Below, one piece after another: positions 8,544 to 30,639 of a stretch of DNA of 64,000 nucleotides. Numbering within the stretch: the stretch's first letter is position 1; each line of letters opens with the position of its first letter. The notes below the pieces were generated by a model. It was not told the DNA's origin. It made no database searches and was given only the letters and a program-made list of their open reading frames with translations. The translations under genes were made by a program, and so were the position numbers. Origin of the DNA: Nocardioides perillae (GTDB lineage: Bacteria > Actinomycetota > Actinomycetes > Propionibacteriales > Nocardioidaceae); contig NZ_JACCAC010000001.1 of the NCBI RefSeq assembly GCF_013409425.1, positions 1,364,001 to 1,428,000 of the forward strand, given 5' to 3'.

Positions 8544-8545
8544 AC

Positions 8546-11500
8546 GTGCGCCCCGTCCCCGCACCGCACCAGGTCGCGTCGTCCCTCGAGGACGACCTGC
8601 TGTCCTACATCGACACCGCCTACTGGCTTCGGGACCCCGAGGTGATGACAGAGCGGAGAGCCGTCCTCACGGCGCCGGGCACGCTCTTCCAGGAGCCCCT
8701 GCTCGAGCCCGTGCTTCCATATCCGGGGACGGTCGACGCAAGGACCACCTGTGTCCGAGCGGGGTTGTCGGAGTCCGAAGCCGACGTGCTGCTCCGCAGC
8801 GTCTTCGGCGAGACCGCTGCTGTCGGGATGAAGCTCCGCCAGCACCAGGCCGACACGATGCTGTGCTCCCTGTCAGAGGGCGAGGGCGCACGCCACCCCG
8901 TGGTGACGTCCGGCACCGGCTCGGGGAAGACGGAGTCCTTCCTGCTGCCGGTGCTCGCTAGGTTGCTGGTCGAGGCTCGCGGGTGGTCCGCCGACGAAGA
9001 GCTCCGCCCATGGTGGGACTCCCAGCCGCTCAAGTGGCGTCCCACGCGCTCGGGCGGACGTCCTGCGGCGGTGCGGGCCATCGTCCTCTACCCGATGAAC
9101 GCCCTGGTCGAGGACCAGGTCGCACGTCTTCGGCGCACGCTGCGGCGGCTGGAGCGTCTGGGCGGGCCGCGACTCTGGTTCGGCCGCTACACCGGGGCGA
9201 CGGTTGGACGCTCCGGCATGCCGAGCGGCGGTCGGCACAGGGACCTCGTGAAGGTCGCGGGTGAACTTCGGGCCATGTGCCAGGAGATGGACGACTTGGC
9301 CACGGCTGGCGACGACCTGACGTCACAGCTGACAGATCCACGCGCGGTCGAGATGGTGACGCGCTGGGACATGGTGGCGGCCCCCCCGGACGTCCTGGTG
9401 ACGAACTACTCGATGTTGAACGTCATGCTCATGCGACAGGTCGAGCAGCCGATCTTCGAAGGCACTCGTGCTTGGCTCGCGGCTGACGGCGACCGAGTCG
9501 TCACCTTGGTCGTCGACGAGCTCCACCTGTACCGGGGCACTCAGGGCGCTGAGGTCGCCATGATCGTCCGGAACCTGTGCGACCGCCTGGGACTGGCGCC
9601 GGACAGCCCGCAGCTCCGCATCATCGCTACAAGCGCGTCCTTGGACGACGACCGTGGTGACTACCTGCAGTCGTTCTTCGGGACGCCAGCGGAGCGCTTC
9701 ATGACGGTCCCCGGCCAGCAGGCCGAGCTCGGGGTCCACCGCCGGCTGGACCCCGTTCAGGTGCGACGAGATCTCGACAGCGGCGACATCGGCGGCCTGG
9801 ACCGTGACATCGCAGCGGCGTGCTTCGACGGGACGCCTGGCGCGCCGCTTCGCGCGACCGCCCTCTCGACGGTGGCGGACCGGCTGTTCGGCAACCGCGA
9901 CCACGACGCCCTGCTCGCGGAGGTGCTCGCTCGTCTCGGTGACCAGCCCGCGGAGGGACAGATCCCCTTCAGGACCCACCTCCTCCTGCGATCGATGCGA
10001 GGGATGTGGGCGTGCTGTGATCCGTCGTGCACAGAGGTCGAGCCCGCGGCCTCAAGGGCAGTCGGCAAGTTGTACGCCCGCCCGCGGCACTTCTGCCGGT
10101 GCGGCGGACGTGTCCTCGAGCTGTTGTACTGCGACCACTGCGGTGACCTCGGACTCGGCGGCTACCTCATCTCAGGCGGGGAGGACGGCTGCTTCCTCGC
10201 GGCGACTCCGGCGGACGTCACCCCCGACGCTGAGAAGGTCGTGTTCCGGCGGCCTGCCAGCTCCTACGTCTGGTACCGACCAGGTCTCCCCAACCACCTG
10301 CCGACCTGGGAGCACCCCAGCCCCGGTGACACCAAGATCAGGTTGACCTTCCTCCCGACCGAGCTGCACCCGCGGCTCGGCTACCTCGACCACACTTCTC
10401 GCACGGACGCCACCGGCGTGACTTTGTCGTGGAGCGGCGGTCCTCCTGGCTGGGCACCGCCTGCGCTACCTTCGAGGTGCCCCTCCTGCGGCCACGCGGA
10501 CGTGCAGCAGCGGTTCCGGCAAGGCGTCGTGCGGTCGCCGGTCCGTGCCCACACGCAAGGCACCGACCAAGCCGTCCAGCTGCTCGTGTCGAGCGTGGTG
10601 CGGGCAGTCTCCACGTCCGAGCGCCCGGAGAAGACGATCGTCTTCACCGACAGTCGTGAGGATGCCGCCGCCACGGCGATGGGGCTGGCCGAGAACGGCT
10701 TCGCCGACCTCGTGAGACAGCTCGTCGGTCGCAGCCTGGAGAAGGAGGACGACGTCGTCCGCGTGCTGCGCGACGGGGCGGTCGGCGGCAGGCTCGCTCC
10801 GGGTGAGATGGCACGTTACGACCAGCTCCGCCAGCAGCACCCCGAGGTCAGTCTCGCCTACGCGGCGATGGCCATGGGGTTGGCGCAACCGGTGCACCTC
10901 GAGCAGGTCGCGGCTTTCGAGGCGAGCCGGGGGAGGGGGCGCGCCACGGCGTGGCCAGACCTCGTGGACCAGCTGATGGTCGAGCTGGTCGCACTGGGGG
11001 TGCCGCCGGGGGGTCAGCGAGCGATGCTGCTGCAGCTCGAGGACGGGTCACCGTGGCACCGGGTCTTCGAACCGCCCGCGCCAGGAGATTGGGATCCTCT
11101 CCCTCACGGGCCAGCGCGCCAGAAGTACCACGAGCTCTATCGACGCTACCTGGTGATGGCGCTCGGTGACGCACTCCTCGGCGGTCGCGGACGTGACCTC
11201 GAGATGACGTTGGTCGGCCACCTGTCGCTCCGAGGCGCTGCCGAGCGGATCCCACCGGACCTCGGGGAGGTGCTCCCGACGGCGCTCAGGCTGATGGGAG
11301 CGAGCAACCGGTGGTCGCCGGGTCACCAGCCGGCGAAGACCGTTCTCCCCCGGCGCGTCAAGGACTACCTCCTACGGGTCTGCGCCTCGCGAGGGCTGCC
11401 GGCCGAGGAACTGGAATCGTTGGTGGTCGAAGCACTGGGGCTGGTGACCGAGGAACGGAACTTGGCGCTAGGTCGTCTCGACCTGCCGCTCGAGGTCCAA

Positions 11501-13744
11501 GCCCCGGGTGAGCAGGTGTGGATCTGCCAGTCGTGCGCCGCCCGTCACCTCCACCCCTCAGCAGGTGTCTGCATGCGGGAGAGATGTACCGGCGCGCTCG
11601 TGGCACAGCCGTTGGCGCCTCTGGCCGCAGACGACTACTACGTAAGGCTGGGTCGACTCACGCCTGCCCGGATGGCTGTGGCTGAGCTGACGGGCCAGAC
11701 GAGCCCTCCATCGTTGGCTCGTGCGAGGCAACGCCGGTTCCGGGGAGCGCTGCTGCCGCGTCCGCAGGAGAACGAGCGCAGCTCTCCGCTCGACGTGCTG
11801 AGTGTGACGACGACGATGGAAGTAGGTGTCGACATCGGGTCGCTCAGCTCGACGGTGATGGGAAACATGCCTCCGCAGCGGTTCAACTACCAGCAGAGAG
11901 TGGGGCGCGCGGGTCGCGCGGGTCAGCCGTTCTCGTACGCAGCGACGCTGTGCCGAGACCGTTCGCACGACGACTACTACTTCAACGAGTCGATGAGGAT
12001 CACCGGAGAGGCGCCACCCCAGCCTTTCCTGGACACACAGCGTGTGGCGATCCTGCGACGCGTCGCCGCGGCCGAGGTGCTCCGTCAAGCGATGTTGTCA
12101 TTACCTGAACCGCCTGCTCCGGGTCGGAGCGTGCACGGCTCCTTCGGGCGCGCCGCAGACTGGGGCGCGCGCAGACAGGGAGTGGCCAACTTTCTCGCGA
12201 CGTCCCCAGCGGTGGAGCGTGTTGTTCGTCGACTCGCCGCCCACACCGGAGTCAGTGACGTGGAGGTCGACGACCTGGTGTGCTGGTTGCGCCAGCGGCT
12301 GGCCGACCGCATCGACGCTGTCGTCACGGACCCGCTTTTCACCCAGTGGGAGCTGTCGGAGCGGCTGGCCAACGCCGGTGTCCTGCCGATGTTCGGCTTC
12401 CCGACGCGAGTGCGCACCCTGTGGTACCCCGCGGGCGGAGGCAAGGTGGAGGAGGTGTCGGACCGGCCGCTAGGGCAAGCCGTGTCCTTGTTCTCATCAG
12501 GCTCCCTCGTGACGAGGGACGGTTGGGTCTACGAGGCCGACGGTTTCGCCGACTACGACCACCGGGGGCGGTCACGAAACCCGCTCGAGGCACGCGTCGA
12601 GATCAGGCGGTGCACGGTGTGCAGCTTCGCGGACTCCGACACCGGGACGGCGACGAGACCGGGGTGCCCAGTCTGCGGTGGGCAGGTGCGGGCGTCGACG
12701 ATGTTCCAGCCAGGTGGGTTCCGGGCCGGCGGCCGCAGCGACAGACGGGGCGAGGACCTCGAGTCGACGAGTGCCAGCAGGCCGGTCCTCGGTTGGGTCG
12801 AGACGTCGAAGGACGCGCTCCGGGCAGGAGCCATGGACTTGTGGGTCGTCGACCAGGGCAAGCTCCTGACGGTGAACGACAACGCCACTCGATTGTTCGC
12901 GACAAAGCGCGAGGCGGACGGCAGCTATGTGGTGGTCGAGGACGGCGGCGGGGGGCCCAGAGGTGCCATCGGTGAGGTCAGGGTGACCGACGCCCTGCTG
13001 ATCCTGCCCAGGGACGTCTCGCTGCCCGGAGGCGTCGTCCCCACGCTTCGTCACGAGTGCCGGAACGGCGGCCCCGCACTGCACTCCTTCGCGGAGGCCC
13101 TTCGGCGCGGTGCGCAGGCCGAGCTCGACATCGAGCCCAATGAGATCACGGTCGGTCTGCAAGGCAGGCGAGTCCACGATGTCGTGACGGCCAATCTCTA
13201 TGTCGCGGACACGTTGGAGAACGGCGCTGGGTACGCCTCTGAGCTTGGTGTCCCTGACCGTCTGCTCACCGTGGTCCGCAGGATCGCCGACGGTCTGGGC
13301 CAGACATGGACGAGCGACGCCCACACGTCGTGTGACTCTGCCTGCCCCGACTGCCTCCGCGCTTACGACAACAGGCACATGCATCCGGTGCTCGATTGGC
13401 GGCTCGCTCTCGACGTCGCCGATCTCGCGCTAGGCCGTGAGCTCGACGAAGCACGGTGGCTCGGGCTGGCGCCCGAGGTCGTCGATCGCTTCATCACCGC
13501 CTTCGGTGGAGTGCTCGGCGGGGTAGCACCTGGGGAGGTCAACGGGTTGTCCTACGTACGCCACGGCAAACGCGCAGTCGTGCTCACCCATCCGATGTGG
13601 CGTTCCGACAGCCCACAGCACGTCCCGCGGTTGCAGGAGGTCGTCTCTGCACTTCGCAGCGAGAGCGCGTCGGCAGTCGCGACCCACGACGTGCGTTCGG
13701 CGCGCTCTTACCCTGAAGGCCTTTACCGACTGCTGCTCGATTGA
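8546..13744 (+). CDS. DruE-like giant DEAH-family helicase with DUF1998 C-terminus
   Basis: 1732 aa, GTG start with GAGGAG 8 bases upstream. Motifs in order: Walker [11 protein letters not shown] (about 121-130), motif [12 protein letters not shown] (DELH 324-327), motif III TSAS, a large insert with Cys-rich zinc ribbons (about 490-560, CDPSC...CRCGGR...YCDHCGD), FTDSREDA (helicase domain 2), [14 protein letters not shown], motif [13 protein letters not shown] (about 1115), another zinc ribbon CTVC...CPVCGG (about 1352), and the DUF1998 Cys signature [16 protein letters not shown] (about 1595). This layout and length match DruE of Druantia defence. Related DUF1998 helicases occur in DISARM and other systems, but no DrmB, DrmC or methylase is adjacent. 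It probably translocates on DNA with the upstream partner. Confidence 0.82.
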
Positions 13745-13753
13745 TCAACTTTT

Positions 13754-13760
13754 GGGAAGG
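13754..13760 (+). promoter_or_regulatory. Ribosome binding site deciding a TTG start
   Basis: GGGAAGG lies 7 bases before the TTG at 13768. An earlier in-frame TTG at 13741 overlaps the helicase stop but has no ribosome site at the right distance. The 13768 start is therefore preferred. Confidence 0.6.
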
Positions 13761-13767
13761 CATCGTC

Positions 13768-14409
13768 TTGCGCAACCGATTGGTCACCCTGCTCGACCTG
13801 GGCCTCGACGAAAGTTTCAATGCGGCAATGGCATTCGTGCAGGGGGTGCTGAGCAACGTCAATGCTGGCTACACGGTTCCGCACCTCGATGTGGACTTCG
13901 TCCGGTCGAGGGACCCGCTGACGATCCAGGGAGCCATCTCGTCGAGGTGCGACGTGCTGCACGTGATGGCGCACGGTGACCACTCTGCGAGCCCGTCTTT
14001 CGTGTCGTCCGACGGCGCGACCGAGGTGGACCTCGGAGTCCTGGCTGAGGGCCTTGCGCGAGGCCTCGACGGGATTGCGGGCGGTGCGGTGGTCATTGCC
14101 GACGGCTGCAAGACCGGTATCGGCATCTGGCAACGAGCGATCCGGGACTGTCTCGAAGGCGAGATCACCTACATCGGGACCACCGCCAACATCGGATGGC
14201 ACGAGTCAACGGTCTTCTGCTCGGCCTTCTACGGGTCGCTGCTTCGGGACCGAGGCCGCGGAAGGTCGGCTGCCCAGCAAGGTATGGACGCAGCAGAACG
14301 CGCCGCCAAGGCATACGAGGTGCTGACCGACAGGAAGTGCCCGTTCAGGGTGTCGACCCTGACTCCGAGCAGTCGTGCCAAGAGGGCGATACGCGGTGCG
14401 AACGGGTGA
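13768..14409 (+). CDS. Caspase/CHAT-like cysteine protease, third gene of the Druantia-like operon
   Basis: 213 aa. It carries the pattern of the caspase-CHAT fold: a hydrophobic strand ending in DVLHVMAHGDH (catalytic His69) and, 45 residues later, AVVIADGCKTG (catalytic Cys114). Then comes an EITYIGTTANIGW strand and a helical FCSAFYGSLLRDRG segment, as in CHAT domains where an FY-x3-L helix follows the active site. At about 210 aa it is a bare protease domain without sensor repeats. It starts 23 bases after the helicase stop on the same strand, so co-transcription is likely. Base composition is visibly less GC-rich than its neighbours (for example the first 120 bases), suggesting separate acquisition. 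Caspase-like proteases act as abortive-infection effectors in several defence systems; that role here is inference. Confidence 0.72.
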   Translation: MRNRLVTLLDLGLDESFNAAMAFVQGVLSNVNAGYTVPHLDVDFVRSRDPLTIQGAISSRCDVLHVMAHGDHSASPSFVSSDGATEVDLGVLAEGLARGLDGIAGGAVVIADGCKTGIGIWQRAIRDCLEGEITYIGTTANIGWHESTVFCSAFYGSLLRDRGRGRSAAQQGMDAAERAAKAYEVLTDRKCPFRVSTLTPSSRAKRAIRGANG

Positions 14410-14600: not shown

Positions 14601-15338
14601 TCAGTGAGGGCTTGTCGCCCGCGGCAGCGGGAACGGCCCCGACCCCTGCACCCGCCGCGGCGGCCTGAACACCTGAGCCGGGCGCCCGACCGACTCCTGC
14701 GACAGCACCTCGTTGCCCGACTTGTCGACGACGGGCTCGAGGAACTCCCGCATGCGACGGTTGAAGGTGTCGCGCTTGAGCGGTTCGCCCAGCACCGCCT
14801 CGTGGGCGTGCCGCAAGCGGCTCAGCGTGAACGGCGCGCGCAGCAGCCCGTCAGGGTCTGGCAGCCGCTCGTAGCGGCGCCGCATCCGGCGCAACCCGGT
14901 GGTCACCATGTCGTCGTGGTCGTAGGCCAGCGGCGTCCGGGTGACCCGCCGGCCTCGCGAGGCGTCGCCGCGCACCTGCACGGTCTGCGCCTCGGGCGTG
15001 AGCCGGGCCAGGTCGTGCTCGGTGATCGCGGCGGACCACGCCAGCGACACCACCCATCCGCGCGGATCGCGCGACGGGTCGTCGTACACGCCGAGCATGC
15101 GGAGGTCGAGTCGCCGGGGGCGGTGGCCGAGCTTGACCTCGAGGACGTCGCCGACGGTCTCGGTGACCCGCTGGCACTCACGCACGAAACGACCCGGCAG
15201 GGCTAGGGGGTCGGGCCCGGCGTCGAGGGCGACCACGCCCAGTGCGTGGCGCCCTCCCTCGGGATCCGGCACCAGCGTGAAGAGCGCCAGGTCGACGGCG
15301 AGGTTGGGTCGGGGGTAGTCGTCGAGGGGGCGGCTCAC
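14601..15338 (-). CDS. NrtR-type Nudix transcriptional regulator
   Basis: 245 aa. The N-terminal two thirds is a Nudix-like domain (NLAVDLALFTL strand, LALPGRFVRECQRVTETVGDVL in place of the Nudix box). It lacks the REx2EExGU catalytic residues, so it is expected to bind ADP-ribose or NAD-like ligands rather than hydrolyse them. The C-terminal third is a winged helix (FTLSRLRHAHEAVLGEPL, then FNRRMREFLEPV). This is the architecture of NrtR repressors of NAD metabolism. The GTG at 15338 is chosen because AAGGTGA sits 5 bases before it; upstream TTG or GTG starts have no ribosome site. It is divergent from an ARPP-1 gene, and a perfect inverted repeat lies between them, so autoregulation and control of the NAD/ADP-ribose cluster is likely. 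Confidence 0.8.
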   Translation of the reverse strand: MSRPLDDYPRPNLAVDLALFTLVPDPEGGRHALGVVALDAGPDPLALPGRFVRECQRVTETVGDVLEVKLGHRPRRLDLRMLGVYDDPSRDPRGWVVSLAWSAAITEHDLARLTPEAQTVQVRGDASRGRRVTRTPLAYDHDDMVTTGLRRMRRRYERLPDPDGLLRAPFTLSRLRHAHEAVLGEPLKRDTFNRRMREFLEPVVDKSGNEVLSQESVGRPAQVFRPPRRVQGSGPFPLPRATSPH

Positions 15339-15369
15339 GCCGGTCACCTTAGCGAGCATCTGCGGGAAG

Positions 15370-15426
15370 TTTGCGCAGACCTGCGCCAATGTCTGCTACA
15401 GTCCTTTTTGTGAGGATCTGCGCAAA
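15370..15426. promoter_or_regulatory. Candidate NrtR operator: 10-bp inverted repeat in a divergent promoter
   Basis: TTTGCGCAGA (15370-15379) and TCTGCGCAAA (15417-15426) are perfect inverted copies 37 bases apart. A degenerate third copy, CCTGCGCCA, lies at 15380-15388. They flank a -10-like TACAGT at 15397. The site sits between the NrtR-type regulator and the ARPP-1 gene, the usual place for an autoregulatory operator. Binding by NrtR is inferred from position. Confidence 0.6.
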
Positions 15427-15450
15427 GCGGATCCGGTGAGGAGGTGGACG

Positions 15451-16299
15451 ATGCTCCACGTAGGACAGGGCACGACGATCGGGGCACTGACCGTGTTCCC
15501 GGTGTGGAACGGCCGGGCGGGCGTCCGGCACTACGTCACGGACGCGGCGGCGCTCGAGGTCGCCGAGGTCGAGGGCGGCGCGGTGCCGCAGCTCGGCGCC
15601 GTCAACCGGGGCAGCAAGGACGTGCTGGTGCTCGACGGCCAGCTCTTCGAGGGCGGGTGGCAGCACCGGATGGCGGCGCGCTCCGCCGTCGTCGGGGCCG
15701 GCGAGCGCGGCACCGTCGACGTCGTGTGCGTCGAGCAGGGACGCTGGGGTGGGGCGCGCGAGCAGGTGACGCGCGGCCGCCGCGCCTCGACCTACGTCCG
15801 TGGCGGTCTCGACGCCCGCGGCGCGGACGACGCGCAGTCCGAGGTGTGGCGCCGGGTCGGCCGCGACGCCGTCGGCCTACCGACCGGCTCGTTCGTCGAG
15901 CACCTCGACCGCGCCGGCGACCGGCTGCAGCGACGGGTGGCCCGTCTGCGCCCGCTGCCCGGGCAGACCGGCGTGCTCGTCGGCGTCGGTGGGCACCCGC
16001 TGCTGCTCGAGGACTTCGACCACCCGCGCACGCTCGCCGAGCAGTACGACGCGATCCTGCGCGCCGCCGTTCTCGACTGCGCCGGCCGCCCGGCCGAGCC
16101 GACGCCCGGGCGGCGCGCGCGACGGGTGGTCGAGCGGTTGAGCCGGGTGCGCCCGGAGGGGCCGCTCGACGCGGACGGGCGCAGCCGGCTGCTGCGCGCC
16201 CGCACCGACCGGCTCGACGTCGCCGTGCTCGAGCGCGACGGGCGACGCGTGCACCTGCGCGTCGTCTCGCCCCACCACCCGGTGGTCGTCGGTGCCTGA
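15451..16299 (+). CDS. ARPP-1 domain protein (NAD/ADP-ribose associated)
   Basis: 282 aa, ATG start with GGAGGTG 4-5 bases upstream. It shows the marks of the ARPP-1 family (ARG- and Rhodanese-Phosphatase-associated): an N-terminal PVWNG...Y.T strand, then the signature VLVLDGQLFEGGWQHR, where a strand and turn precede a conserved His-Arg. The family is known mainly by gene association with ADP-ribosylglycohydrolases and Cys phosphatases; its reaction is not established as far as I know. Both partner types are encoded about 2 kb downstream, here fused in one protein. A soluble cytosolic protein with no signal peptide. It overlaps the next gene by 8 bases. Confidence 0.72.
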   Translation: MLHVGQGTTIGALTVFPVWNGRAGVRHYVTDAAALEVAEVEGGAVPQLGAVNRGSKDVLVLDGQLFEGGWQHRMAARSAVVGAGERGTVDVVCVEQGRWGGAREQVTRGRRASTYVRGGLDARGADDAQSEVWRRVGRDAVGLPTGSFVEHLDRAGDRLQRRVARLRPLPGQTGVLVGVGGHPLLLEDFDHPRTLAEQYDAILRAAVLDCAGRPAEPTPGRRARRVVERLSRVRPEGPLDADGRSRLLRARTDRLDVAVLERDGRRVHLRVVSPHHPVVVGA

Positions 16300-16564
16300 G
16301 AGCGCGGTGGGCCGTGTCGTGGCCCTCGTCGCTTCGGGCAGGGTCGACGCGGCGGAGGTCGTGCCGGCGCTGCGAGCGGCGCTGGGAGCCGGCGGAGTCG
16401 CAGACGACAGCCTCGACGCCACGCTCCGCAGGCTGGCCGGCGTCGAGGACGACCGCGACGGCGGCGGCACCTGGACCGAGGTCGAGGCGGCGCGGGTCAC
16501 CGGGCGCCTCACCGAGGAGCAGTACGCCGTGCTGCGCGCCGGCGTGCTCGGCCACGGCCGGTGA
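16292..16564 (+). CDS. Small protein of unknown function, coupled to ARPP-1 gene
   Basis: 90 aa, GTG start overlapping the preceding gene by 8 bases. It is helical and Ala/Val/Glu-rich, with repeated short helices (VGRVVALVASGRVDAAEVV, then VTGRLTEEQYAVLRAG) that resemble a small helix-turn-helix or SHOCT-like adaptor. No catalytic motif. The overlap suggests a partner of the ARPP-1 protein. Confidence 0.6.
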   Translation: MPESAVGRVVALVASGRVDAAEVVPALRAALGAGGVADDSLDATLRRLAGVEDDRDGGGTWTEVEAARVTGRLTEEQYAVLRAGVLGHGR

Positions 16565-16595
16565 CGCTGTCGGCGCGCGACCGTACGGTGGGCCC

Positions 16596-16634
16596 ATGCC
16601 TCGACCACGTCTCTGTCGCCACACACGGCGCTAG
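16596..16634 (+). CDS. Possible leaderless 12-residue leader peptide
   Basis: A TACGGT box (-10 type) is followed after 6 bases by ATG and a 12-codon frame MPRPRLCRHTRR ending in TAG. The geometry matches a leaderless actinobacterial transcript start, and short Arg/Cys/His peptides of this kind can act as translation-coupled attenuators. It lies 54 bases before the next gene. This is weak evidence from geometry only; no downstream attenuator hairpin was confirmed. Confidence 0.3.
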   Translation: MPRPRLCRHTRR

Positions 16635-16688
16635 TCGTCCTCCCGGCCGGGTGGGCGGCGCGCCGACCGGACGACGGAGGCGAACGAG

Positions 16689-17027
16689 GTGGCCCACACC
16701 GACAAGACCGACCCGTTCAGGGTCAAGATCTGGCACGGCGCGCTGGGGCGCGTGGCCGAGCACGACCACACCGACGGCATCTGCGACCTGCCGCGCACGT
16801 TGGCGGACTTCCTCGCCCAGGATCCTCGCCGCACGTCGGCCTGCACGTGGTCCTGGGCTGACGACGGCACGGGGCTCTGCGGTTGCGAGGTCTGCCGCGG
16901 GCAGACGTCGGAGCGCCGCGTGCGTCGTGGCGAGCGCCGCCGGACGCGGATGAGCCTCGGCGAGGAGCGCAAGCGGTGGCGTGCCGCCGGCTCGCTGAGC
17001 GCGACCGCCGCTGTCGGTGGTCCCTGA
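16689..17027 (+). CDS. Small Cys-cluster protein, unknown function
   Basis: 112 aa from GTG. The N-terminal half (TDPFRVKIWHGALGRVAEHDH) looks like a small beta domain. Four Cys are present, of which three form CxCxxC (GLCGCEVCRGQ) near residues 66-71, consistent with metal binding. The C-terminus is Arg-rich and probably binds nucleic acid. It sits between the ARPP-1 pair and the vWA gene on the same strand. It is not a family I can name. Confidence 0.62.
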   Translation: MAHTDKTDPFRVKIWHGALGRVAEHDHTDGICDLPRTLADFLAQDPRRTSACTWSWADDGTGLCGCEVCRGQTSERRVRRGERRRTRMSLGEERKRWRAAGSLSATAAVGGP

Positions 17028-17273
17028 CACGCTGAGGCACGAGGTCGGGTCGCCGCACTCAGCGGCTGCGGCGGCTCGGCCTCGACGGGGACCGCCGCCG
17101 CTCGGGACTGGCCGCCCCACGGCTCGACAGCTGTGGCTCCGCCGCCGCGACGCGGGACGGCGTCGCTTCCACCACGACCGGCATGCCGGTCCCGCTCGGC
17201 GGGTCCGCACGCCGACCAGCACCCACCACCCGTCGCACTCCGCGCCGGGTCCGCACCACAACGGGGGAACACC

Positions 17274-18605
17274 ATGAAGCTCGATGCCCACCTCGGCGTC
17301 GACGTCGTCGCCCACGAGGCCGACGACACCGTCGACGTCCTGCTCCACCTCGAAGCGCCCACGGCGCACACCGTCGACCGCGCGCCCAGCACGCTGCAGG
17401 TCGTGCTCGACCGCAGCGGCTCGATGGCCGGCCGTCCGCTCGACGGCGCCAAGCGGGCCCTCGTCGCCCTCGTCGAGCGGCTCGAGCCGACCGACAACCT
17501 CGGTCTTGTCGTCTTCGACGACACCGCCGAGGTGGTGGTGCCCGCCGGACCGCTCACCGACAAGGCCGGGGTGCTCGACCGCATCCGCGCCGTCCGGCCC
17601 GGCGGCACCACCGACCTGAGCGCCGGCTACGTCCGGGCGCTCCGCGAGGTGAAGCGTGTGTTCGCCGAGCCGTGGGACGTGCTGTTCCCCGACGGCGATG
17701 ACCCGCAGGCCACCACCGGCCGCGCAGGAGCGACGGTGCTGATCATCAGCGACGGTCACGTCAACGCCGGGCTGCGCGACGTTGACCGGTTCGCCGACCT
17801 CGCCCGCGCGGCGTACGCGGACCGGGTGACGACCACGACCCTCGGCTACGGCGAGGGCTACGACGAGACGTTGCTCAGCGCGCTGGCGCGCGGCGGCAGC
17901 GGCAACCACGTCTTCGCCGCCGACCCCGACGCCGCCGGGGCGGCGATCGCCCAGGAGGTGGACGGCCTGCTGGAGAAGGTGGCGCTGGCCGCGTCGTTGA
18001 CGGTGCGGTTCGCGCCCGAGGTGGCGATGCTGCGGCTCTTCAACGACCTGCCCGCCCAGCAGGTCGGCGACGGAGCCGTCATGGTCGAGCTGGGTGACCT
18101 GTGGTCCGGGGAGGCGCGCAAGCTGCTGCTGCGGCTGCACGTCCCGGCGATGCCGGCCCTCGGGCTGGCGCAGGTCGCCTCCCTTGACCTGCAGTGGGTC
18201 GAGCTGCCGGGTCTCGTCGAGCACACCGTGTCGCTGCCGATCAGCGTCAACGTGGTGCCGGGCGACGAGGCGGCGCAGCGGGTCCCCGACCCGACCGTGC
18301 GCTCGGAGGTGCTCTTCCAGGAGGCCCAGGAGGCCAAGCGCAAAGCGTCGGAGGCGTTCGAGCGGGGCGACCTCGACGTCGGCCGCACCTACCTCGGTGA
18401 GACCGAGCTGCTCCTCGACGGGGCCGCCGGGCTGCTCGACGGCGCCGGCAAGGCCGAGCTGGACGCCGAGCGCGCCGACGTGCGACGGATGCAGCAGCTC
18501 AGCACGGAGGCGCCGCCGACCCACGTGTCGAAGCTGACGCGGGCCAGCTACCACCAGCAGAACCGCAAGCGCGGTCGGCGCCGCGAGTCGGACGGTGGCC
18601 AGTGA
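17274..18605 (+). CDS. von Willebrand factor type A domain protein
   Basis: 443 aa, ATG start with a GGGGGA ribosome site. The vWA domain starts at about residue 40 with the full MIDAS motif DRSGS (46-50), a conserved Thr in GGTTDLSAG (about 118), and VLIISDGHVNAG (about 160), so it should bind a divalent metal and a protein ligand. A beta-rich domain follows and then a helical, Arg-rich C-terminus. No signal peptide, so cytosolic. The stop overlaps the start of the ADP-ribosylglycohydrolase gene by 4 bases. vWA proteins in such clusters usually act as scaffolds or with AAA ATPases, but no MoxR ATPase is adjacent. The 246 bases upstream (17028-17273) show no gene. Confidence 0.82.
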   Translation: MKLDAHLGVDVVAHEADDTVDVLLHLEAPTAHTVDRAPSTLQVVLDRSGSMAGRPLDGAKRALVALVERLEPTDNLGLVVFDDTAEVVVPAGPLTDKAGVLDRIRAVRPGGTTDLSAGYVRALREVKRVFAEPWDVLFPDGDDPQATTGRAGATVLIISDGHVNAGLRDVDRFADLARAAYADRVTTTTLGYGEGYDETLLSALARGGSGNHVFAADPDAAGAAIAQEVDGLLEKVALAASLTVRFAPEVAMLRLFNDLPAQQVGDGAVMVELGDLWSGEARKLLLRLHVPAMPALGLAQVASLDLQWVELPGLVEHTVSLPISVNVVPGDEAAQRVPDPTVRSEVLFQEAQEAKRKASEAFERGDLDVGRTYLGETELLLDGAAGLLDGAGKAELDAERADVRRMQQLSTEAPPTHVSKLTRASYHQQNRKRGRRRESDGGQ

Positions 18606-20125
18606 GCCCGATGCGCCCGGTGGAGCCGACGCGGCTGACCACCTCGCAGACCGACCGCGCCGCCGGGGTGCTGCTCACCGCTGCGTGTGGTGACGCGCTC
18701 GGCGTGCCCTACGAGTTCGCCCGCCCGCCGGCTGCCGACGAGCTCGCCGAGATGCTCGGGGGCGGCCTGGGCGACGGCGCGCCGGGGGAGTGGAGCGACG
18801 ACACCGCGATGGCCGCTGCTATCGGCCGGGTCGCGGCGACCGGGGCCAACCTGACGAAGCGCGAGGCGCTCGACGAGGTCGCGCTCGGGTTTCTCCAGTG
18901 GTTCGACGGCGGCCCGCCCGACGTCGGCATCCAGACCTCCGCCGTGCTGACGGCGAGCGCGCGGCGGCTGGCGGCCGAGGGTGGTCCGCCGTCCGAGGTC
19001 CTGGCCGCCGAGGCTGCGGCCTACGCCGAGCGCAACCCGCGCTCGGCCGGCAACGGCGCGCTCATGCGCACCGGCCCGGTGGCGCTGGCCCACCTGCGTG
19101 ACCGGGACGCGTGTGCCCGCGCGGCCCGCGCTGTTGCCGAACTGACCCACGCCGACCCGCTGGCGGGTGACTCGTGCGTGCTGTGGTCGGAGGCTGTCCG
19201 CGCGGCGGTGGTCGACGGCCGGCTCGACGTCGAGGCCGGGCTCGACCTCATCCCGGGCGAGCGCCGCGAGCAGTGGGCGGCGTGGCTCGCCGAGGCGCAG
19301 GACGTGTTGCCCGACGGGGAGGTGCCCGGGCGGCGCTTCACACCCAACGGGTTCACGGTCACGGCGCTGCAGGCGGCGGTCGCTGCGGTCACGGGCACGC
19401 CGGTGCCTGACCTGCGACCGCGCGAGGCGTCGTACCCGTGCCTGCACCTGCAGCACGCGCTGCACGCAGCGGTGCGCATCGGTGACGACACCGACTCGGT
19501 CGCGGCGATCGCCGGGGCGTTGCTCGGTGCACGGTGGGGCGCGAGCGCGGTGCCGTGGCGCTGGCGCCGGCTCGTCCACGGCTGGCCCGGGCTCGACGGG
19601 CGTGACCTCGTCTCGCTGGCGACGAAGGCGGCCCGCGGCGGTCGGCTCGACAGCAAGGGGTGGCCGGACGTCGACGACGTGCCCTACGACGAGTACGCCT
19701 CGCCTCACGTCGTGCTGCACCCCTACGACGACGGCGTGGTGATCGGGACGACGCGCACTCGCGGCGCGGGCGTCGACGCGGTCGTCTCGATGTGCCGGGT
19801 GGGCCGCGCGCAGGCGTGCTTCGACGGCGCGACCGAGCTGGTCGAGTCGCGGCTCATGGACGCCGAGGACCGCGACGCCAACCCCAACCTCCACTTCGTC
19901 CTGGCCGACACCGCCGACGCGGTGCGTGGGCTGCGGGCGGAGGGCAAGCGGGTGCTGCTGCACTGCGTCGCCGCCCAGCAGCGGACGCCGAGCGCGGCCG
20001 TCGCGTACGCCGTCATGCTCGGCGCCGACCCGGAGGAGGCGCGCGAGCGGGTGCTCGCGGTGTTGAACGAGGCGCGAGGGTACGGGCGGGTGTGGGAGGC
20101 GGCGGGGGAGGTGCTGGCCCGCTGA
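18602..20125 (+). CDS. ADP-ribosylglycohydrolase fused to a Cys-dependent phosphatase
   Basis: 507 aa. Residues about 15-330 form a DraG/ARH-type ADP-ribosylglycohydrolase: GDALGVPYEF, the metal-binding WSDDTAM (SDDT 65-68) and the second metal motif IGDDTDSVAAIAG (about 294-306). These remove ADP-ribose from proteins or nucleic acids. Residues about 355-507 are a dual-specificity/rhodanese-like phosphatase with CX5R loop HCVAAQQRTPS (Cys455, Arg461). The fusion unites the two enzyme types after which ARPP-1 is named, and an ARPP-1 gene is 2.3 kb upstream. Start is GTG 18602 (4-base overlap with the vWA stop) or ATG 18611. Both active sites look intact. The natural substrate cannot be told from sequence. 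Confidence 0.88.
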   Translation: MSPMRPVEPTRLTTSQTDRAAGVLLTAACGDALGVPYEFARPPAADELAEMLGGGLGDGAPGEWSDDTAMAAAIGRVAATGANLTKREALDEVALGFLQWFDGGPPDVGIQTSAVLTASARRLAAEGGPPSEVLAAEAAAYAERNPRSAGNGALMRTGPVALAHLRDRDACARAARAVAELTHADPLAGDSCVLWSEAVRAAVVDGRLDVEAGLDLIPGERREQWAAWLAEAQDVLPDGEVPGRRFTPNGFTVTALQAAVAAVTGTPVPDLRPREASYPCLHLQHALHAAVRIGDDTDSVAAIAGALLGARWGASAVPWRWRRLVHGWPGLDGRDLVSLATKAARGGRLDSKGWPDVDDVPYDEYASPHVVLHPYDDGVVIGTTRTRGAGVDAVVSMCRVGRAQACFDGATELVESRLMDAEDRDANPNLHFVLADTADAVRGLRAEGKRVLLHCVAAQQRTPSAAVAYAVMLGADPEEARERVLAVLNEARGYGRVWEAAGEVLAR

Positions 20126-20327
20126 AGGGTCCGGATTCGGCGCCCGGCGTTGTTCGTTCTGGCTGTCCGCTTGCCGTCGGCGCCGCTCCGGCGTGCCCTT
20201 TTCAGCACCGAGCAAACTCTTGGCGTCGAATTGCGTCATGTTTGGACTGTGGGCGCGTGTCACCCACGTTCGGCACGGGAACGGCCCGTGTCTCGGGATC
20301 ACGGCCAAGGCCGCGGAGGGGTATGTC

Positions 20328-20957
20328 GTGCGTGTGTTGGTGAGGGCCGTCTCGGTCCTGCTGATCGGCGGGGTCCTGGCAATCGGAGGGGTCGTTGCGC
20401 TGACCGCTGTCGGCCTGGTCGATTTCAAGTGGCCGTTTTCCACCACGACCATCGACCGGAGTCAGCCGGTGCTGCTCGAGTCCGTGCAGGACGTCAATCG
20501 TTACGTCGGCGCTGTCGGGAACCTCGAGGTGGTTGTCGACCTGGAGCGAGACGTTGAGTGGTTGCCCGGTTTCCTAGCCGGTGAGCGTTCCCTCTTCGTC
20601 GCCGCTGGCACAGTGGACGCGTACGTTGATCTGGCGAGCCTGGAGGCCGGTGACCTCGTCGTGTCCGACGACCGCACCAAGGTCACCATCACCCTCCCGT
20701 CCGCGGTGCTGGGCGAGCCAAATCTCGACCAGGATCGCACCTACTTGTTCGACCAGGAACGGGGCGTCCTGGACCGTCTTGAAGATGCCCTTTCGACGCC
20801 GGATCAGCAGGAGCTCTATCAGGAAGCGGAGTCGAAGATCGGCGCCGCGGCGGAGGCGTCCGATTTGAAGGATCAGGCCGAGGCCAACACCGAGGCGATG
20901 CTGGTCGGCATGTTCGCCGGGATGGACATGACGACAACGGTCACCTTCGATGAGTGA
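20328..20957 (+). CDS. DUF4230 membrane-anchored protein
   Basis: 209 aa, GTG start 6 bases after GGAGGGG. One N-terminal membrane helix (about 6-28, VSVLLIGGVLAIGGVVAL) is followed by an extracytoplasmic or membrane-proximal DUF4230 domain: LESVQDVNRYVGAVGNLEV, then VAAGTVDAYVDL and VTITLPSAVLGEP, and a helical end rich in Glu/Ala. DUF4230 has no known function. The stop overlaps a GTG that could start the next gene. Composition is somewhat lower in GC than the region before it. The 202 bases upstream (20126-20327) carry no gene and should hold the promoter. Confidence 0.78.
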   Translation: MRVLVRAVSVLLIGGVLAIGGVVALTAVGLVDFKWPFSTTTIDRSQPVLLESVQDVNRYVGAVGNLEVVVDLERDVEWLPGFLAGERSLFVAAGTVDAYVDLASLEAGDLVVSDDRTKVTITLPSAVLGEPNLDQDRTYLFDQERGVLDRLEDALSTPDQQELYQEAESKIGAAAEASDLKDQAEANTEAMLVGMFAGMDMTTTVTFDE

Positions 20958-21013
20958 ACGCATTGACTGACCGCGGCCCGCTGGGTCGGCATGACGAGAA
21001 CGGGGGAATCGCG

Positions 21014-22297
21014 GTGGCTGGGAACGAAGCAGCGGAGCGTGTCGAACTACAGGTGATCGCCGACGACGACGGTGTGGCGGTGCTCGGTCCGCCGGCCGAG
21101 GTCGAACGCTTCCTCGTCGCGGAGGGACTGGTCGACGCCCGGCCGCTCGAGCTCTCCCGACTGCATGGAGCGGCCAGCGTGGGTGGTGCCGTCGCCCAAG
21201 CCGGCTCGAGCATCGCGGCGGACTCCGGTCGCTGGGTCAAGCTGACCAAGGAGTCGGCGAAGGCGATCGAGCGACACGGGCTCCGACAGAGCTCGAAGAG
21301 CGGCCTGACGACCGGCGTCATCAGGGGCCCGAAGGGTCAGGTGAAGGGGTTCGTCGAGTTCGCCAGGGGACCGGGGGCGTCGCTCACCAACCCGGCGGTG
21401 CTCGCGGGTGCTGCGGGGATCATGAGCCAACTCGCCATGCAGCAGGCGATGGACGAGATCACCGACTACCTCCAGCGCATCGACGCCAAGCTCGACGACG
21501 TCCTGCAGGCGCAGAAGGATTCGGTCGTGGCGAGGCTCGTCGGATCGGGCTTCGTCATCGACGAGGCGGTCACCGTGCGCAACCGGCGCGGCCGCGTCGA
21601 CGAGGTGACGTGGTCGAAGGTGCAAGCAGTGCCATCGACCATCGCGGAGGTGCAGGGTTATGCGTTGGCGCAGCTCGACGCGCTGGCGCAGAAGCTCGAG
21701 GGTGCTCGCAGGGTCGGCACCATCGCCGACGTCGTCCAGGAGGCGGAGGGCAAGACGCAGGAGTGGCTCGCAGTCCTCGCGCGCACGTTCCAGCTCCAAG
21801 ACGGGATCGCGGTGCTCGAGCTGGACCGGGTGCTGGACGCGGCGCCGGAGGAGCTCGATGCCCACCGCACCGGGCTGCGGGAGGCACGCCAGGACCGGCT
21901 CCACCTCATCGAGCAGGCGACCCGCCGGCTGCTCGACCGGATCAGCGAAGCTGCGACGGTCGCCAACCAGAAGGTGCTCCGGCACCCGTCGGCCTCGCCC
22001 ACAGCTGTCGGCGCAGGGGAGAAGGTCACCCGGAAGATCGAGGACTTCTACGAGTTGCTCGGGTTGTCCGGCGAGCGTCGGGAGATGGAGGTGCGGCGGT
22101 GGACCACGGCTGCCGGGGAGGTCCGTGACCGGGCGCTCGAGCAGGGCGTCGACACGGCCCAAGCCGTTCGCCGCCGAGGTGGTGCCGTGGCGGGCACCGC
22201 TCGCGACGGCGCCCGAGATGCTCGCGTTCGGCTCGGAGCGCGGTTGAAGCTCGTGCGTGGCGCCGGTCCAGACGAAGTGGACGACCCCGACGAGTGA
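21014..22297 (+). CDS. Uncharacterised protein with hydrophobic helix and coiled coils
   Basis: 427 aa from GTG 21014, which has GGGGGA 6 bases upstream; an earlier GTG (20954) would overlap the DUF4230 stop and cannot be ruled out. A small N-terminal beta-alpha domain (ELQVIADDDGVAVLGPP) is followed by a hydrophobic helix (NPAVLAGAAGIMSQLAMQ, about 134-151) and then DEITDYLQRIDAKLDDVLQAQ, a heptad coiled coil. The rest is long helices. I recognise the type as a conserved actinobacterial hypothetical but know no function. It is coupled to the DUF4230 gene and may form a membrane complex with it. Confidence 0.7.
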   Translation: MAGNEAAERVELQVIADDDGVAVLGPPAEVERFLVAEGLVDARPLELSRLHGAASVGGAVAQAGSSIAADSGRWVKLTKESAKAIERHGLRQSSKSGLTTGVIRGPKGQVKGFVEFARGPGASLTNPAVLAGAAGIMSQLAMQQAMDEITDYLQRIDAKLDDVLQAQKDSVVARLVGSGFVIDEAVTVRNRRGRVDEVTWSKVQAVPSTIAEVQGYALAQLDALAQKLEGARRVGTIADVVQEAEGKTQEWLAVLARTFQLQDGIAVLELDRVLDAAPEELDAHRTGLREARQDRLHLIEQATRRLLDRISEAATVANQKVLRHPSASPTAVGAGEKVTRKIEDFYELLGLSGERREMEVRRWTTAAGEVRDRALEQGVDTAQAVRRRGGAVAGTARDGARDARVRLGARLKLVRGAGPDEVDDPDE

Positions 22298-22307
22298 CGA
22301 GCAGTGA

Positions 22308-22819
22308 TCAGTCGTCGCAGAGCTCGCACACGCCCGAGACCGACCGCTCGACGAAGTGGACCTCGCACGTGCCGCGCGAGCCTCGTCGCGGCTCGTGCCA
22401 CCGCCACCCCCGTGCGCCTTGAACCACGGCAGCTCGACCAACGGGCGACCCTTCGCATCGACGTACCCCTTGCCGATCCACGCGGCGACCTGGCCGTCGC
22501 CGGCGAGCGCGATGTAGGAGCCGCTCGACGGGATCCAGACCAGCTCCCAGGTGACGCCTTGGAGCGCGTCGCGGATGAGGCGCTTGGCCTGGTCCGACCG
22601 GTGGCCGAAGGCCTCGAAGGCCGCCTCGATGTCGAAGTACTGCCGCCCGACGCCTGCGACCTCCTTCTCGCAGTGGCTGCGCAGTCCGTTCTGGTCGACC
22701 TGTGCGGGGGTGGCCTCGGTCAGCTCCGAGTCAGCGAAGAGGTGAGGACAGGCACGGATGTGCACCTTGCCCCGCGGGTTGGTGCCGAACAACGGCTCTC
22801 GGCTCAGGTCGGCGGTCAC
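22308..22819 (-). pseudogene. Small zinc-binding protein with a frameshift
   Basis: From GTG 22819 the frame runs through HIRACPHLFADSE and WELVWIPSSGSYIALAGDG to VELPWFKAHGG. It then drops out of a coding-like pattern at a run of five Cs on the plus strand (22407-22411). A shift of one base restores a convincing end, RGTCEVHF...GVCELCDD and stop at 22308, giving C-x2-H...C-x2-C zinc ligands. The unshifted frame runs on antisense to the next gene without conserved features. Either a genuine inactivating frameshift, a slippage site, or a homopolymer error. Function unknown. Confidence 0.55.
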
Positions 22820-22927
22820 CCTGCAGAGTCTCCGCCGCCTGGAGGCGGGCGGCGTCATCCTCGCGGGTCCGACTGTCGGTGGTCACCCCTAGCGTGGACC
22901 TCGGGTCGAGATGAAGGGGGATGGCTC

Positions 22928-24319
22928 ATGGGGGATGCACGACAGGCGTCGTGGGGGCGCGCGGTGGACGCGGCGTGGCTCGCGTTCCGACAGCAGCTCG
23001 CCGACCACCTCGCGGAGTTCGAGGACGGCGCGAAGCTGGTGATCGAGCTCGAGATGGGCGTCGACCACGACGACCTCGACGGGTCGCTGCCCTACGTCCA
23101 GTTCGTCGGCTGGGACGACGGCCGTCAGGTGAGGGCCGAGGTGTCGTCGCAGCACTACCTCGACCCGCGGTACGCCGTGGGACCGCACGGTGCGCAGGTG
23201 CTGCGCAGCGTGGGCTGGGAGCCGCCGACCCACGCGCCGGACGAGCAGCCCGACGACGGCTCGTCCAACTGGTGGGCGGACCACGAGCTCCGCGAGGCCG
23301 ATCTCGCGGCCTGCCGCGCCACCGTCGCCCTGCGCGACGTCTTCGGCGCGCCGCACCCGTCGTTCCTCCGCACCGACGCCCGCCTGCAGCTCACCGGCGC
23401 CGCCGGCGGCGGTGGGGCGGAGGCCACCGCCGACGAGCGTGGGGCAGGTGAGGGCGACGACGAGGAGCCGCCCGTCCGCTTCCCCCACGGGGTCGACGAG
23501 CTGCGGGGGATGGTGGTCGAGGCGCTCGGGCGGGTCGTCGACCACCCGGTGCAGCTCGACGATGACGGTGACGTCCCGCTGGTCGCCGGCCGGAGCATGC
23601 TCTTCGTGCAGGCGCTGCCGGACGAGCCGACCCTGCAGCTGTGGTCGCCGCTCGTGAGCGGGGTCGACGACCCGGACCGCGCCGCAGACGAGGTCGCCCT
23701 GCTCAACCGCGACGTCCTCTTCGGCGCGTTCGTGCTCACCGACACGGGCGACGTGCACTTCCGGCACCACCTGTGCGCGATGCCGTTCGCGCCGCTGCAG
23801 CTGCGACTGGTGGTGGCGCGGGTGCTCTCCGACCTGGACCGTCGTGCCGGCGACCTCGTGCGGCGCGTCGGCGGGACGCGGTTCTTCGACGACCTGGAGC
23901 CGGACGAGGACGACGACGTGCCGGTCCTCGAGGTGAGCGAGGGCGCCGACCCCGACGAGCACCACCACAGCCACGACGAGGCGGACGGTCGCCTCCGCGG
24001 TGAGCTGCTCGTGCTGCGCGAGCTGATCGCGGCCGGGGCCGCGGCACCCGCGACGGTGGCGGCGCTCTTCGACGGTGACCTCGAGCTGATGGCGCTCGTC
24101 GTCGACGACCTGCTCACCGACCCGCCCGCGACGCTCGACGTCGCCGACGCGGTCGCCGCGCTGCGCGGTGGCCTCGTCTTCGCCGCGGAGCGCACGGCTC
24201 GGTTGCGCTGGTCGCGGTCGGCCCGCCCGCCCGGGCGGCGGCCGCGGTCGCAGCAGCAGGAGCTGCTCACCTCCGACGACCTGGGCGAGCCGGTGCTCGA
24301 CCTCGGCGGCGATGGGTGA
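22928..24319 (+). CDS. YbjN/TY-Chap (type III chaperone-like) domain protein
   Basis: 463 aa, ATG start; the purine-rich GAAGGGGGATGG lies 5 bases upstream. The N-terminal domain (about 1-150: WGRAVDAAWLAFRQQLADHL, LPYVQFVGWDDGRQVRAEV, NWWADHELREADLAACRAT) and the middle domain (about 190-330: LRGMVVEALGRVVDHPVQLD, VLFGAFVLTDTGDVHFRHH) look like tandem YbjN/type III secretion chaperone-like folds. An acidic, His-rich linker (about 330-350) leads to a helical C-terminus. Such domains bind other proteins and occur next to conflict-system genes. It is 42 bases before the NERD-helicase gene, so one operon is likely. Confidence 0.68.
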   Translation: MGDARQASWGRAVDAAWLAFRQQLADHLAEFEDGAKLVIELEMGVDHDDLDGSLPYVQFVGWDDGRQVRAEVSSQHYLDPRYAVGPHGAQVLRSVGWEPPTHAPDEQPDDGSSNWWADHELREADLAACRATVALRDVFGAPHPSFLRTDARLQLTGAAGGGGAEATADERGAGEGDDEEPPVRFPHGVDELRGMVVEALGRVVDHPVQLDDDGDVPLVAGRSMLFVQALPDEPTLQLWSPLVSGVDDPDRAADEVALLNRDVLFGAFVLTDTGDVHFRHHLCAMPFAPLQLRLVVARVLSDLDRRAGDLVRRVGGTRFFDDLEPDEDDDVPVLEVSEGADPDEHHHSHDEADGRLRGELLVLRELIAAGAAAPATVAALFDGDLELMALVVDDLLTDPPATLDVADAVAALRGGLVFAAERTARLRWSRSARPPGRRPRSQQQELLTSDDLGEPVLDLGGDG

Positions 24320-24361
24320 GTCGCGCCGCCATGGCGGCCGTGCGCGGGAGAGGGTGACGAC

Positions 24362-26020
24362 GTGCCTCGACTGATGCCCGAGCAGCCGACCTTCACCACC
24401 GACTCCGAGCGCGAGGTGTGGGAGCGGCTGCGCGACGGGCTGGGCGACGACGACGTGCTGATCGCGGGGCTCCGTCTGACCGACGTCGACAAGGACCACG
24501 AGGCGGACCTGGTGGTGCTGATGCCCGACTTCGGGGTGCTGGTGATCGAGGTCAAGGGCAGCAGCGTCTGGTTCGACGACGGCGGGTGGTGGCAGCAGCG
24601 CGGCGGCAAGGCGCGCAGCATCGACCCCGTCACACAGGTGCGCACCACCAAGTACGCCGTCCGTGACTACGTCGCCCGCGACCCGCGGTGGCAGCGCGCC
24701 AACCACGTCTCGTGGGGCCACATGCTCGCGTTGCCCTACAGCGAGGTCGCCGACGACTTCGACGCCCCCGACTGCCCGCGGTGGGCCGTGCTCGACCGGC
24801 ACGACCAGGTCGACCTCGCCGAGCGGCTGCGGGCGATGGCGCCGCGCACCTGGCAGGGCAAGCCCCCGCCCACGGCAGAGCAGGTCGAGGTGATCGCCGA
24901 GATCCTGCACGGCCGGCCGTCGGGCACGGCGTACGACGTCAATGCCGAGTCGGACGAGCGCGCGGCCGCGGCCGACCGCCTGACCCAGGAGCAGGCGACC
25001 ATCCTCGGCGTCACCCGGCTGCTCAACCGCGTCGAGGTGCGCGGCGGCGCCGGCAGCGGCAAGACGGTCCTCGCACTGCAACAGGCCAAGCAGCTCAGCC
25101 ACGGCGGGCACGGCAAGCCGCGTCAGCGCGTCGCGCTGCTGTGCTACTCGCTCGGCCTGGCTGCCTACCTCAAGCGGGTCACCGAGTCGTGGCACCGCAA
25201 GGACCGGCCCGCCTTCGTCGGCACCTTCCACGACTTCGGTCGGCAGTGGGGAGCGCCCGAGGGCGACCGCCAGGACAGCAGCTTCTGGGAGCAGGAGCTG
25301 CCGCGGACGATGGGCGAGCTGGCCGAGGGGCTCGCCGACAAGGACCGCTACGACGCGATCATCGTCGACGAGGCGCAGGACTTCGCCGACGACTGGTGGC
25401 GCCCGGTGCTGAAGGCGTTGCGCGACGAGGAGCAGGGCGGGCTGTACGTCTACTCCGACGAGAACCAGCGCATCTTCGCCCGCTTCGGCCGCCCGCCGGT
25501 GCAGCTCGTCCCGCTCGTGCTCGATCACAACCTGCGCAACACCCGGCAGATCCACGAGTCGTTCGGCCCGCTTGCGCCGTCGCGCATGTACGCCCGCGGC
25601 GGCGACGGGCCCGCCGTGCGGTTCATCGCCGCGAGCACCGAGGACGCCGTCGAGGTGGCCGACGACGCGGTCCTCGAGCTCCTGGACGCGGGGTGGCGGC
25701 CCGAGCACGTCGCGCTGCTCACCACCGGGCAGCGCCACCCCGTGCAGGTCGAGCGCACCGAGCACCGCGACCAGGACGGCTACTGGCAGAGCTTCTGGGA
25801 CGGCGACGACGTCTTCTACGGCCACGTCCTCGGCTGCAAGGGCCTCGAGCGGCGCGCGGTCGTCCTCTGCCTCAACGAGTCGACGGTCCGCGACCGCGCT
25901 CGCGAGCGGTTGTACGTCGGGATGTCGCGCGCCACCGACCAGCTCGTCGTCGTCGGTGACCCGGCGTTCGTCCGCCAGTACGGCGGGGTCGAGGTGGCGA
26001 AGCGGCTGGGGGTCGGTTGA
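24362..26020 (+). CDS. NERD nuclease-UvrD-type helicase fusion
   Basis: 552 aa, GTG start after GAGAGGGTG. Residues about 10-130 are a NERD domain: HEADLVVLMPDFGVLVIEVKG holds the D...E-x-K nuclease motif (EVK about 63-65). A UvrD-like SF1A helicase core follows: Walker A RGGAGSGKTVL (about 226-236), motif Ia region, DEAQDFADDWW (motif II, about 335), HNLRNTRQIHE, GCKGLERRAVVLC (motif V) and LYVGMSRATDQLVV (motif VI). All main motifs are intact. NERD-helicases act on DNA, probably cutting or unwinding foreign or damaged DNA; several short defence loci include them. The YbjN-like gene upstream is the likely partner. Confidence 0.86.
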   Translation: MPRLMPEQPTFTTDSEREVWERLRDGLGDDDVLIAGLRLTDVDKDHEADLVVLMPDFGVLVIEVKGSSVWFDDGGWWQQRGGKARSIDPVTQVRTTKYAVRDYVARDPRWQRANHVSWGHMLALPYSEVADDFDAPDCPRWAVLDRHDQVDLAERLRAMAPRTWQGKPPPTAEQVEVIAEILHGRPSGTAYDVNAESDERAAAADRLTQEQATILGVTRLLNRVEVRGGAGSGKTVLALQQAKQLSHGGHGKPRQRVALLCYSLGLAAYLKRVTESWHRKDRPAFVGTFHDFGRQWGAPEGDRQDSSFWEQELPRTMGELAEGLADKDRYDAIIVDEAQDFADDWWRPVLKALRDEEQGGLYVYSDENQRIFARFGRPPVQLVPLVLDHNLRNTRQIHESFGPLAPSRMYARGGDGPAVRFIAASTEDAVEVADDAVLELLDAGWRPEHVALLTTGQRHPVQVERTEHRDQDGYWQSFWDGDDVFYGHVLGCKGLERRAVVLCLNESTVRDRARERLYVGMSRATDQLVVVGDPAFVRQYGGVEVAKRLGVG

Positions 26021-30597: not shown

Positions 30598-30639
30598 GGG
30601 TGTGACGGCCGATTCGACTACATCCGCGATCACACCCGC

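Follow-up and report, generated by a model that had tools for sequence, protein, structure and literature searches.

A gene cluster at positions 14601-26020 of a 64,000-nucleotide stretch of the Nocardioides perillae genome (the window, the whole stretch of DNA analysed here) is, judged by its sequence, a member of the ARG-centric class of systems described by Iyer, Burroughs and Aravind in 2022 (section 3.8 and Figure 7 of PMC9503650). We place its core in three genes, those for the Nudix-fold repressor NrtR, for ARPP-1 and for a fusion of an ADP-ribosylglycohydrolase domain (ARG) with a phosphatase domain (DSP), and regard the remaining genes as accessory. Systems of this class combine a Nudix or WYL repressor, ARG, a rhodanese-superfamily phosphatase, vWA or TY-Chap proteins, a REase or helicase and an ARPP, with no transferase, and are proposed to reverse viral or otherwise hostile ADP-ribosylation of host molecules, an origin of the substrate from outside being argued from the missing transferase (PMC9503650). 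With a probability of about one half we take the window cluster to be such an ADP-ribose-reversal system, repressed by its own NrtR and induced by foreign ADP-ribosylation. The association of these genes was itself published in 2022; new here are an apparently dedicated regulator with its operator, the sporadic spread, a swap of regulators and a linkage to SIR2.

The four genes named in an earlier, sequence-only reading of this DNA (NrtR-type Nudix repressor, ARPP-1, vWA and ARG-DSP fusion) are all confirmed by Pfam matches, the DSP part by profile and fold. As in the published class, and again in an actinobacterium, there is an ARG without a coupled transferase or sirtuin, a Nudix regulator, a phosphatase, here fused, and proteins of the ARPP, chaperone (vWA and TY-Chap) and REase-helicase types. 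The Pfam name of ARPP-1 itself records its origin in the 2022 prediction, and REase-ARP, a Pfam model for that class of system, matches in relatives. The earlier reading ended the unit at 20125; a TY-Chap3/TY-Chap1 protein and a NERD-UvrD helicase lie downstream and, because both are part types of the published system, the span is extended to 26020. The window differs from the published description in carrying ARG and phosphatase on one chain, an option allowed for in PMC9503650, and in a small gene, s90, after ARPP-1, while its relatives differ from section 3.8, where the regulators are Nudix and WYL only, in having a third regulator family and a linked SIR2 protein. ART and SIR2 models were unmatched among the cluster proteins scanned, and to that extent the earlier statement that no ADP-ribosyltransferase is present stands; genome-wide the search covered only KptA and SIR2_2, and as both are absent from the window genome an endogenous source of ADP-ribose via either was rejected. 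The suggestion of a module for signalling or defence that is based on NAD or ADP-ribose survives in kind, as the published prediction, and falls as something unrecognised.

The nrtR gene (14601-15338, minus strand) matches the NrtR_WHD model PF21906 at 36.1 bits (cut-off 27), and a profile search of the PDB matches it to SoNrtR, 3gz5, with an E value of 5e-26. Its open reading frame (14601-15389) is open from a TTG at 15389, and the GTG at 15338 has the ribosome-binding-site-like AAGGTG. The earlier claim of a Nudix regulator lacking catalytic residues is upheld by alignment, in that LPGRFVRECQRVTETVGDVLEVKLG stands where the Nudix box GX5EX7REUXEEXGU is expected, and the box is degenerate in the relatives too. 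Where one operator had been proposed there are two 20-bp operators in tandem in the intergenic region, the imperfect palindrome TTTGCGCAGACCTGCGCCAA at 15370-15389 and the motif match TTTGTGAGGATCTGCGCAAA at 15407-15426, which flank a TGCTACAGT box (15394-15402, plus strand), tentatively a possible extended −10 of the ARPP-1 promoter; a full sigma-70 consensus promoter was not recognised in the NrtR/ARPP-1 intergenic region. At up to three mismatches the motif has no site in the 3.6-Mb genome beyond these two, and in shuffled versions of the window the expectation is 0. Because NrtR is the only PF21906 match in the genome and its operator is confined to this cluster, it is most likely, on these sequence grounds, dedicated to the ARPP-1 cluster. 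Among the 27 actinomycete loci with a detected ARPP-1 that make up our comparison sample (whole-genome counts below come from 22 ARPP-1 genomes), good matches to the motif occur in the NrtR-type loci L015, L023, L032, L084, L085 and L087, but not in the NrtR-type loci L082 and L086, nor in loci with the other regulator. The window protein shares with the NrtR proteins of NAD metabolism in Shewanella and Synechocystis a Nudix-fold sensor and a winged helix, and two of the three basic residues with which SoNrtR contacts the phosphates of ADP-ribose (Lys76, Arg98 and Arg41; PMC4666351), Lys76 and Arg98 aligning to its conserved K86 and R110. In contrast to those regulators, whose classical targets are NAD metabolism (PMC4666351), it has operators at the ARPP-1 cluster only and none at NAD genes.

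The ARG-DSP fusion (18602-20125, plus strand) matches ADP_ribosyl_GH (PF03747) at 166.7 bits (cut-off 26.2), and in an alignment of 16 homologues the ARG metal-site motifs GDALG, DDT, GNG and DDTD are kept, as are the DSP's candidate general acid D420 and the loop HC455X5R461. The C-terminal DSPc match is weak and sub-threshold in Pfam (E 0.0086); the domain is clear in profile comparison with the PTP/DSP chains of the PDB (best E 4e-9), and its AlphaFold2 model (pLDDT 86) has the fold of the DUSP28/DUSP family with a probability of 1.00. The two domains share one chain and are conserved as a pair. The NCBIfam models for Tri1 and DraG match the ARG domain far below cut-off. Like DraT-DraG, DarT with macro or NADAR domains and Tre1-Tri1, the system would use an ADP-ribosyl hydrolase for reversing a modification, whereas the window has no partner transferase and adds a fused phosphatase and a sensor-repressor.

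ARPP-1 (PF20208, alias DUF6569) occupies 15451-16299 on the plus strand and scores 172.4 bits (cut-off 27); its open reading frame runs 15436-16299 and the ATG at 15451 is preceded by GAGGAGGTG. Gln71 is invariant among 37 sequences, with Cys93 near-invariant, which fits the conserved cysteine and glutamine highlighted in PMC9503650. The AlphaFold2 model is confident (pLDDT 92) and yet no credible solved fold was found for it, the best PDB match having an E value of 0.09 and a probability of 0.11, and a profile of the family against the PDB sequences gave matches at chance level only. ARG and/or DSP occurs with ARPP-1 in 26 of the 27 loci. At the exception (L021:7929-9709) an HD-hydrolase-like gene, similar to alarmone hydrolases, follows ARPP-1, with a fragment resembling the SIR2 protein just upstream. 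Overlapping the ARPP-1 stop is s90 (16292-16564, plus strand), a 90-residue predicted protein with no Pfam family, whose homologues, by profile and alignment, stand immediately 3' of ARPP-1 in six other loci and for which plasmid NZ_CP097985 has an annotated coding sequence in the corresponding position. The weakest part is a 112-residue frame with a CGCEVC motif (16689-17027, plus strand), which has no homologue in any other ARPP-1 locus and may not be a gene; neither small frame was in the earlier reading.

From these parts we infer a ligand, a substrate, an order of reactions and a role in defence. NrtR, sitting on the two operators around the ARPP-1 promoter, would keep the cluster off until host protein or nucleic acid is modified by a foreign ADP-ribosyltransferase, be it a phage's or an antibacterial toxin of a rival. 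ADP-ribose or a derivative would then rise and bind the catalytically dead Nudix domain, and repression would be lifted. The ARG domain would remove the ADP-ribose, the fused DSP would take a phosphate off the same product or off the uncapped end, and ARPP-1 may act on the ribose moiety. The vWA and TY-Chap proteins would handle damaged protein, and NERD-UvrD could be a second-line effector directed at nucleic acid. The reading is favoured because the part list is that of section 3.8 of PMC9503650 and is matched by the Pfam models of that system, because ARG or DSP accompanies ARPP-1 almost throughout while the genome's only NrtR has its operator only here, because K86 and R110 are kept, because the spread is patchy, with a plasmid copy, repeated regulator swaps and neighbours of the classes listed in PADLOC, and because an ARH-like hydrolase can strip ADP-ribose from RNA phosphate ends (PMC11833690).

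Several points weigh on the other side. The residue of the window NrtR equivalent to SoNrtR Arg41, which binds an ADP-ribose phosphate, is an alanine in our own reading of the alignment, and other ligands, NAD and L-arabinose, are sensed within the NrtR family (PMC4666351). The window's full gene set may not act together, vWA, DUF4230 and TY-Chap each being in a minority of loci, and with such island neighbours an association with defence is to some extent automatic. The literature searched, which covered few subscription papers, yielded no phage, toxin or metabolite assay, nor any experimental work on ARPP-1/DUF6569 or on the system; ARPP-1 is unmentioned in the main text of DefensePredictor (PMC13092281).

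The relatives bring in a second regulator and a SIR2 protein, on which the best placed of the rival explanations is built. In the 26 loci with ARG and/or DSP the regulator is NrtR in 12 and, in 14, an unannotated family of about 236 residues that we call c4, never both. Members of c4 lie upstream of ARPP-1, as at L016:6532-7242, L013:7036-7767 and in 12 other loci, and the family has no significant Pfam match and no PDB match; its C-terminal helix-turn-helix and FHA-like N terminus were seen by eye only, and an FHA identity is not a finding. The best ARPP-1 tree calls for four to five swaps of regulator, or for two when only well-supported branches are counted. A ThsA-like SIR2 protein, matching SIR2_2 (E 5e-22) and ThsA1 (E 2e-24), is encoded near ARPP-1 at 7 of the 11 NrtR-type loci and at none of the 14 with the other regulator (Fisher 7e-4). 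Its genes include L015:4310-5803, L023:12272-13921 and L082:5370-6929, and by eye its N-terminal region resembles a macro domain. The 22 genomes hold six copies, four of them no more than 10 kb from ARPP-1, against an expectation by area of about 0.03, and one copy lies elsewhere in a genome carrying the other regulator. An NAD-cleaving abortive defence could be built from this, in which ADP-ribose produced by the linked SIR2 NADase is sensed by NrtR and cleared or converted by ARG-DSP and ARPP-1, the window having lost its SIR2. For the coupling of SIR2 to NrtR, however, the tree offers no more than two to four independent contrasts, and a sign test is not significant; the SIR2_2 protein is absent from the window genome, and the phosphatase is left unexplained, so that we consider this version unlikely, if deserving of some weight. 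The SIR2 protein of the relatives resembles the ThsA of Thoeris, whereas the window genome has no SIR2_2; no ThsB or TIR was found among the parts identified, TIR not having been searched for genome-wide.

The fused phosphatase implies a phosphomonoester on the natural substrate or its product; plain ADP-ribose has none. Certain DSP-fold enzymes work on RNA ends. One concrete candidate substrate is ADP-ribosylated RNA phosphate ends, a possibility raised because the ARH-like hydrolase SCO5809 strips ADP-ribose from such ends (PMC11833690). On this could rest a nucleic-acid end repair, with ARG freeing a phosphate at the end of an RNA or DNA strand and DSP removing this phosphate to leave an end for ligation or decay, and both the conservation of the two domains in one chain and the linkage of NERD-UvrD to ARPP-1 would suit it. 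Against this the genome offers no source of the KptA/Tpt1 type, no ligase or kinase is recognised in the cluster, and the best fold matches of the phosphatase are generic DUSPs; we hold end repair to be doubtful. Equally speculative is a sensor-gated "ADP-ribose uncapping", in which ARG would deprotect a phosphorylated acceptor, the phosphatase would finish the product, ARPP-1, a protein of unknown fold, would process the freed ribose via its Cys and Gln, and the NrtR of the SIR2-bearing relatives would read ADP-ribose made by the NADase.

Returning to reversal of foreign ADP-ribosylation, its accessory genes raise the question whether they piled up by chance within a defence island, NrtR, ARPP-1 and ARG-DSP being one unit and vWA, DUF4230/W11, TY-Chap and NERD-UvrD drawn from other systems. 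The vWA protein (17274-18605, plus strand; PF00092, 56.1 bits against a cut-off of 23.8, E 7e-15) keeps an intact MIDAS, DRSGS, and is predicted to be a peptide-binding chaperone of this class of system; being found in 2 of the 27 loci, it is not the standing part that it had been taken for. The DUF4230 gene (20193-20957, plus strand; PF14014, 116 bits) is found in two loci and the 447-residue W11, whose gene overlaps it (20954-22297, plus strand), in four; both recur after ARG-DSP, in reversed order, in Nocardioides sp. GY 10127 (L029). The protein with TY-Chap3 and TY-Chap1 domains (22928-24319, plus strand; PF22552 E 3e-30, PF22551 E 3e-32) is of a kind found in six. These counts suit a pile-up, as does the remnant-like gene c10 on the minus strand (22304-22858), which breaks the row; towards the C terminus its coding sequence carries on in a different frame, apparently by a frameshift, and its homologues stand beside NrtR/ARPP-1 in five other loci. 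The likely effector, a fusion of NERD with a UvrD-type helicase (24362-26020, plus strand; PF08378 42 bits, PF00580 27 bits), speaks the other way, being present in 15 of the 27 loci, with 11 of the 18 copies in the whole genomes no more than 10 kb from ARPP-1, when area would predict about 0.08. Moreover vWA and TY-Chap belong to the published class (PMC9503650) and GY 10127 has nearly the same row at 41-65% identity, so that a mere pile-up seems quite improbable.

ARPP-1 is carried by 10 of 98 congeners, 18 of 295 genomes of the family, 13 of 395 of the class and 41 of 396 of the phylum, and a copy of the cluster lies on the 110-kb Pimelobacter plasmid pA-N39. A RES-domain gene (L116:1360-2070) lies about 7 kb from the plasmid-borne cluster of Pimelobacter simplex. 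Carriage by phages was rejected, none having been found in 50,697 phage records or in viral contigs. Housekeeping conservation in all relatives, which the sequence-only reading had named as what would speak against it, is thus not the pattern seen. A housekeeping salvage of NAD or ADP-ribose under an NAD-responsive NrtR, in keeping with the family's classical role (PMC4666351), is strongly disfavoured and was rejected on distribution and operator uniqueness, since ARPP-1 is in under 7% of the family's genomes and on a plasmid, the operator is confined to this cluster and no NAD biosynthesis gene is recognised in it.

The cluster had been said to follow a defence operon directly. Upstream and outside the module there are indeed the Druantia-like DruF (5496-8543) and DruE (8546-13744), both on the plus strand (PADLOC DruF2 803 bits, DruE2 1408 bits), but of the Druantia type II set DruM, DruF, DruG and DruE only these two were matched among the neighbouring proteins scanned. 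After them, within 5496-14409, comes a 222-residue protein with His and Cys motifs, by eye a CHAT/caspase-like protease, and the cluster is flanked by a PbeA-like (PADLOC) C-terminal helicase fragment at 4945-5376 and by an ISL3 transposase fragment at 30581-30907 on the minus strand; no recognisable left-flank gene of the island was found. In GY 10127 (L029:1-16298) the row runs DruF, DruE, regulator, ARPP-1, ARG-DSP, W11, DUF4230 and NERD-UvrD, and together with that of the window suggests that the arrangement of the island is old and shared. The composition dips at three places, the Druantia genes, about 20-22 kb and 26-32 kb, and because it is undisturbed at the ARPP-1/ARG core, the most recent origin of the island is not necessarily that of the core.

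A dedicated, inducible reversal of hostile ADP-ribosylation in bacteria has been predicted, and no demonstration was found in the literature searched. The cluster makes a good test case, with a complete genome, intact catalytic motifs and a genome-unique operator that is a ready-made reporter for the ligand of NrtR, and in the compact ARG-DSP fusion two activities constrain the substrate. Were the uncapping scheme true, the module would be tied to NAD-cleaving immunity. The swap of regulators and the SIR2 linkage in relatives are two further testable leads, and for ARPP-1, with its confident model and no solved relative, a structure or an activity would open up an enzyme family.

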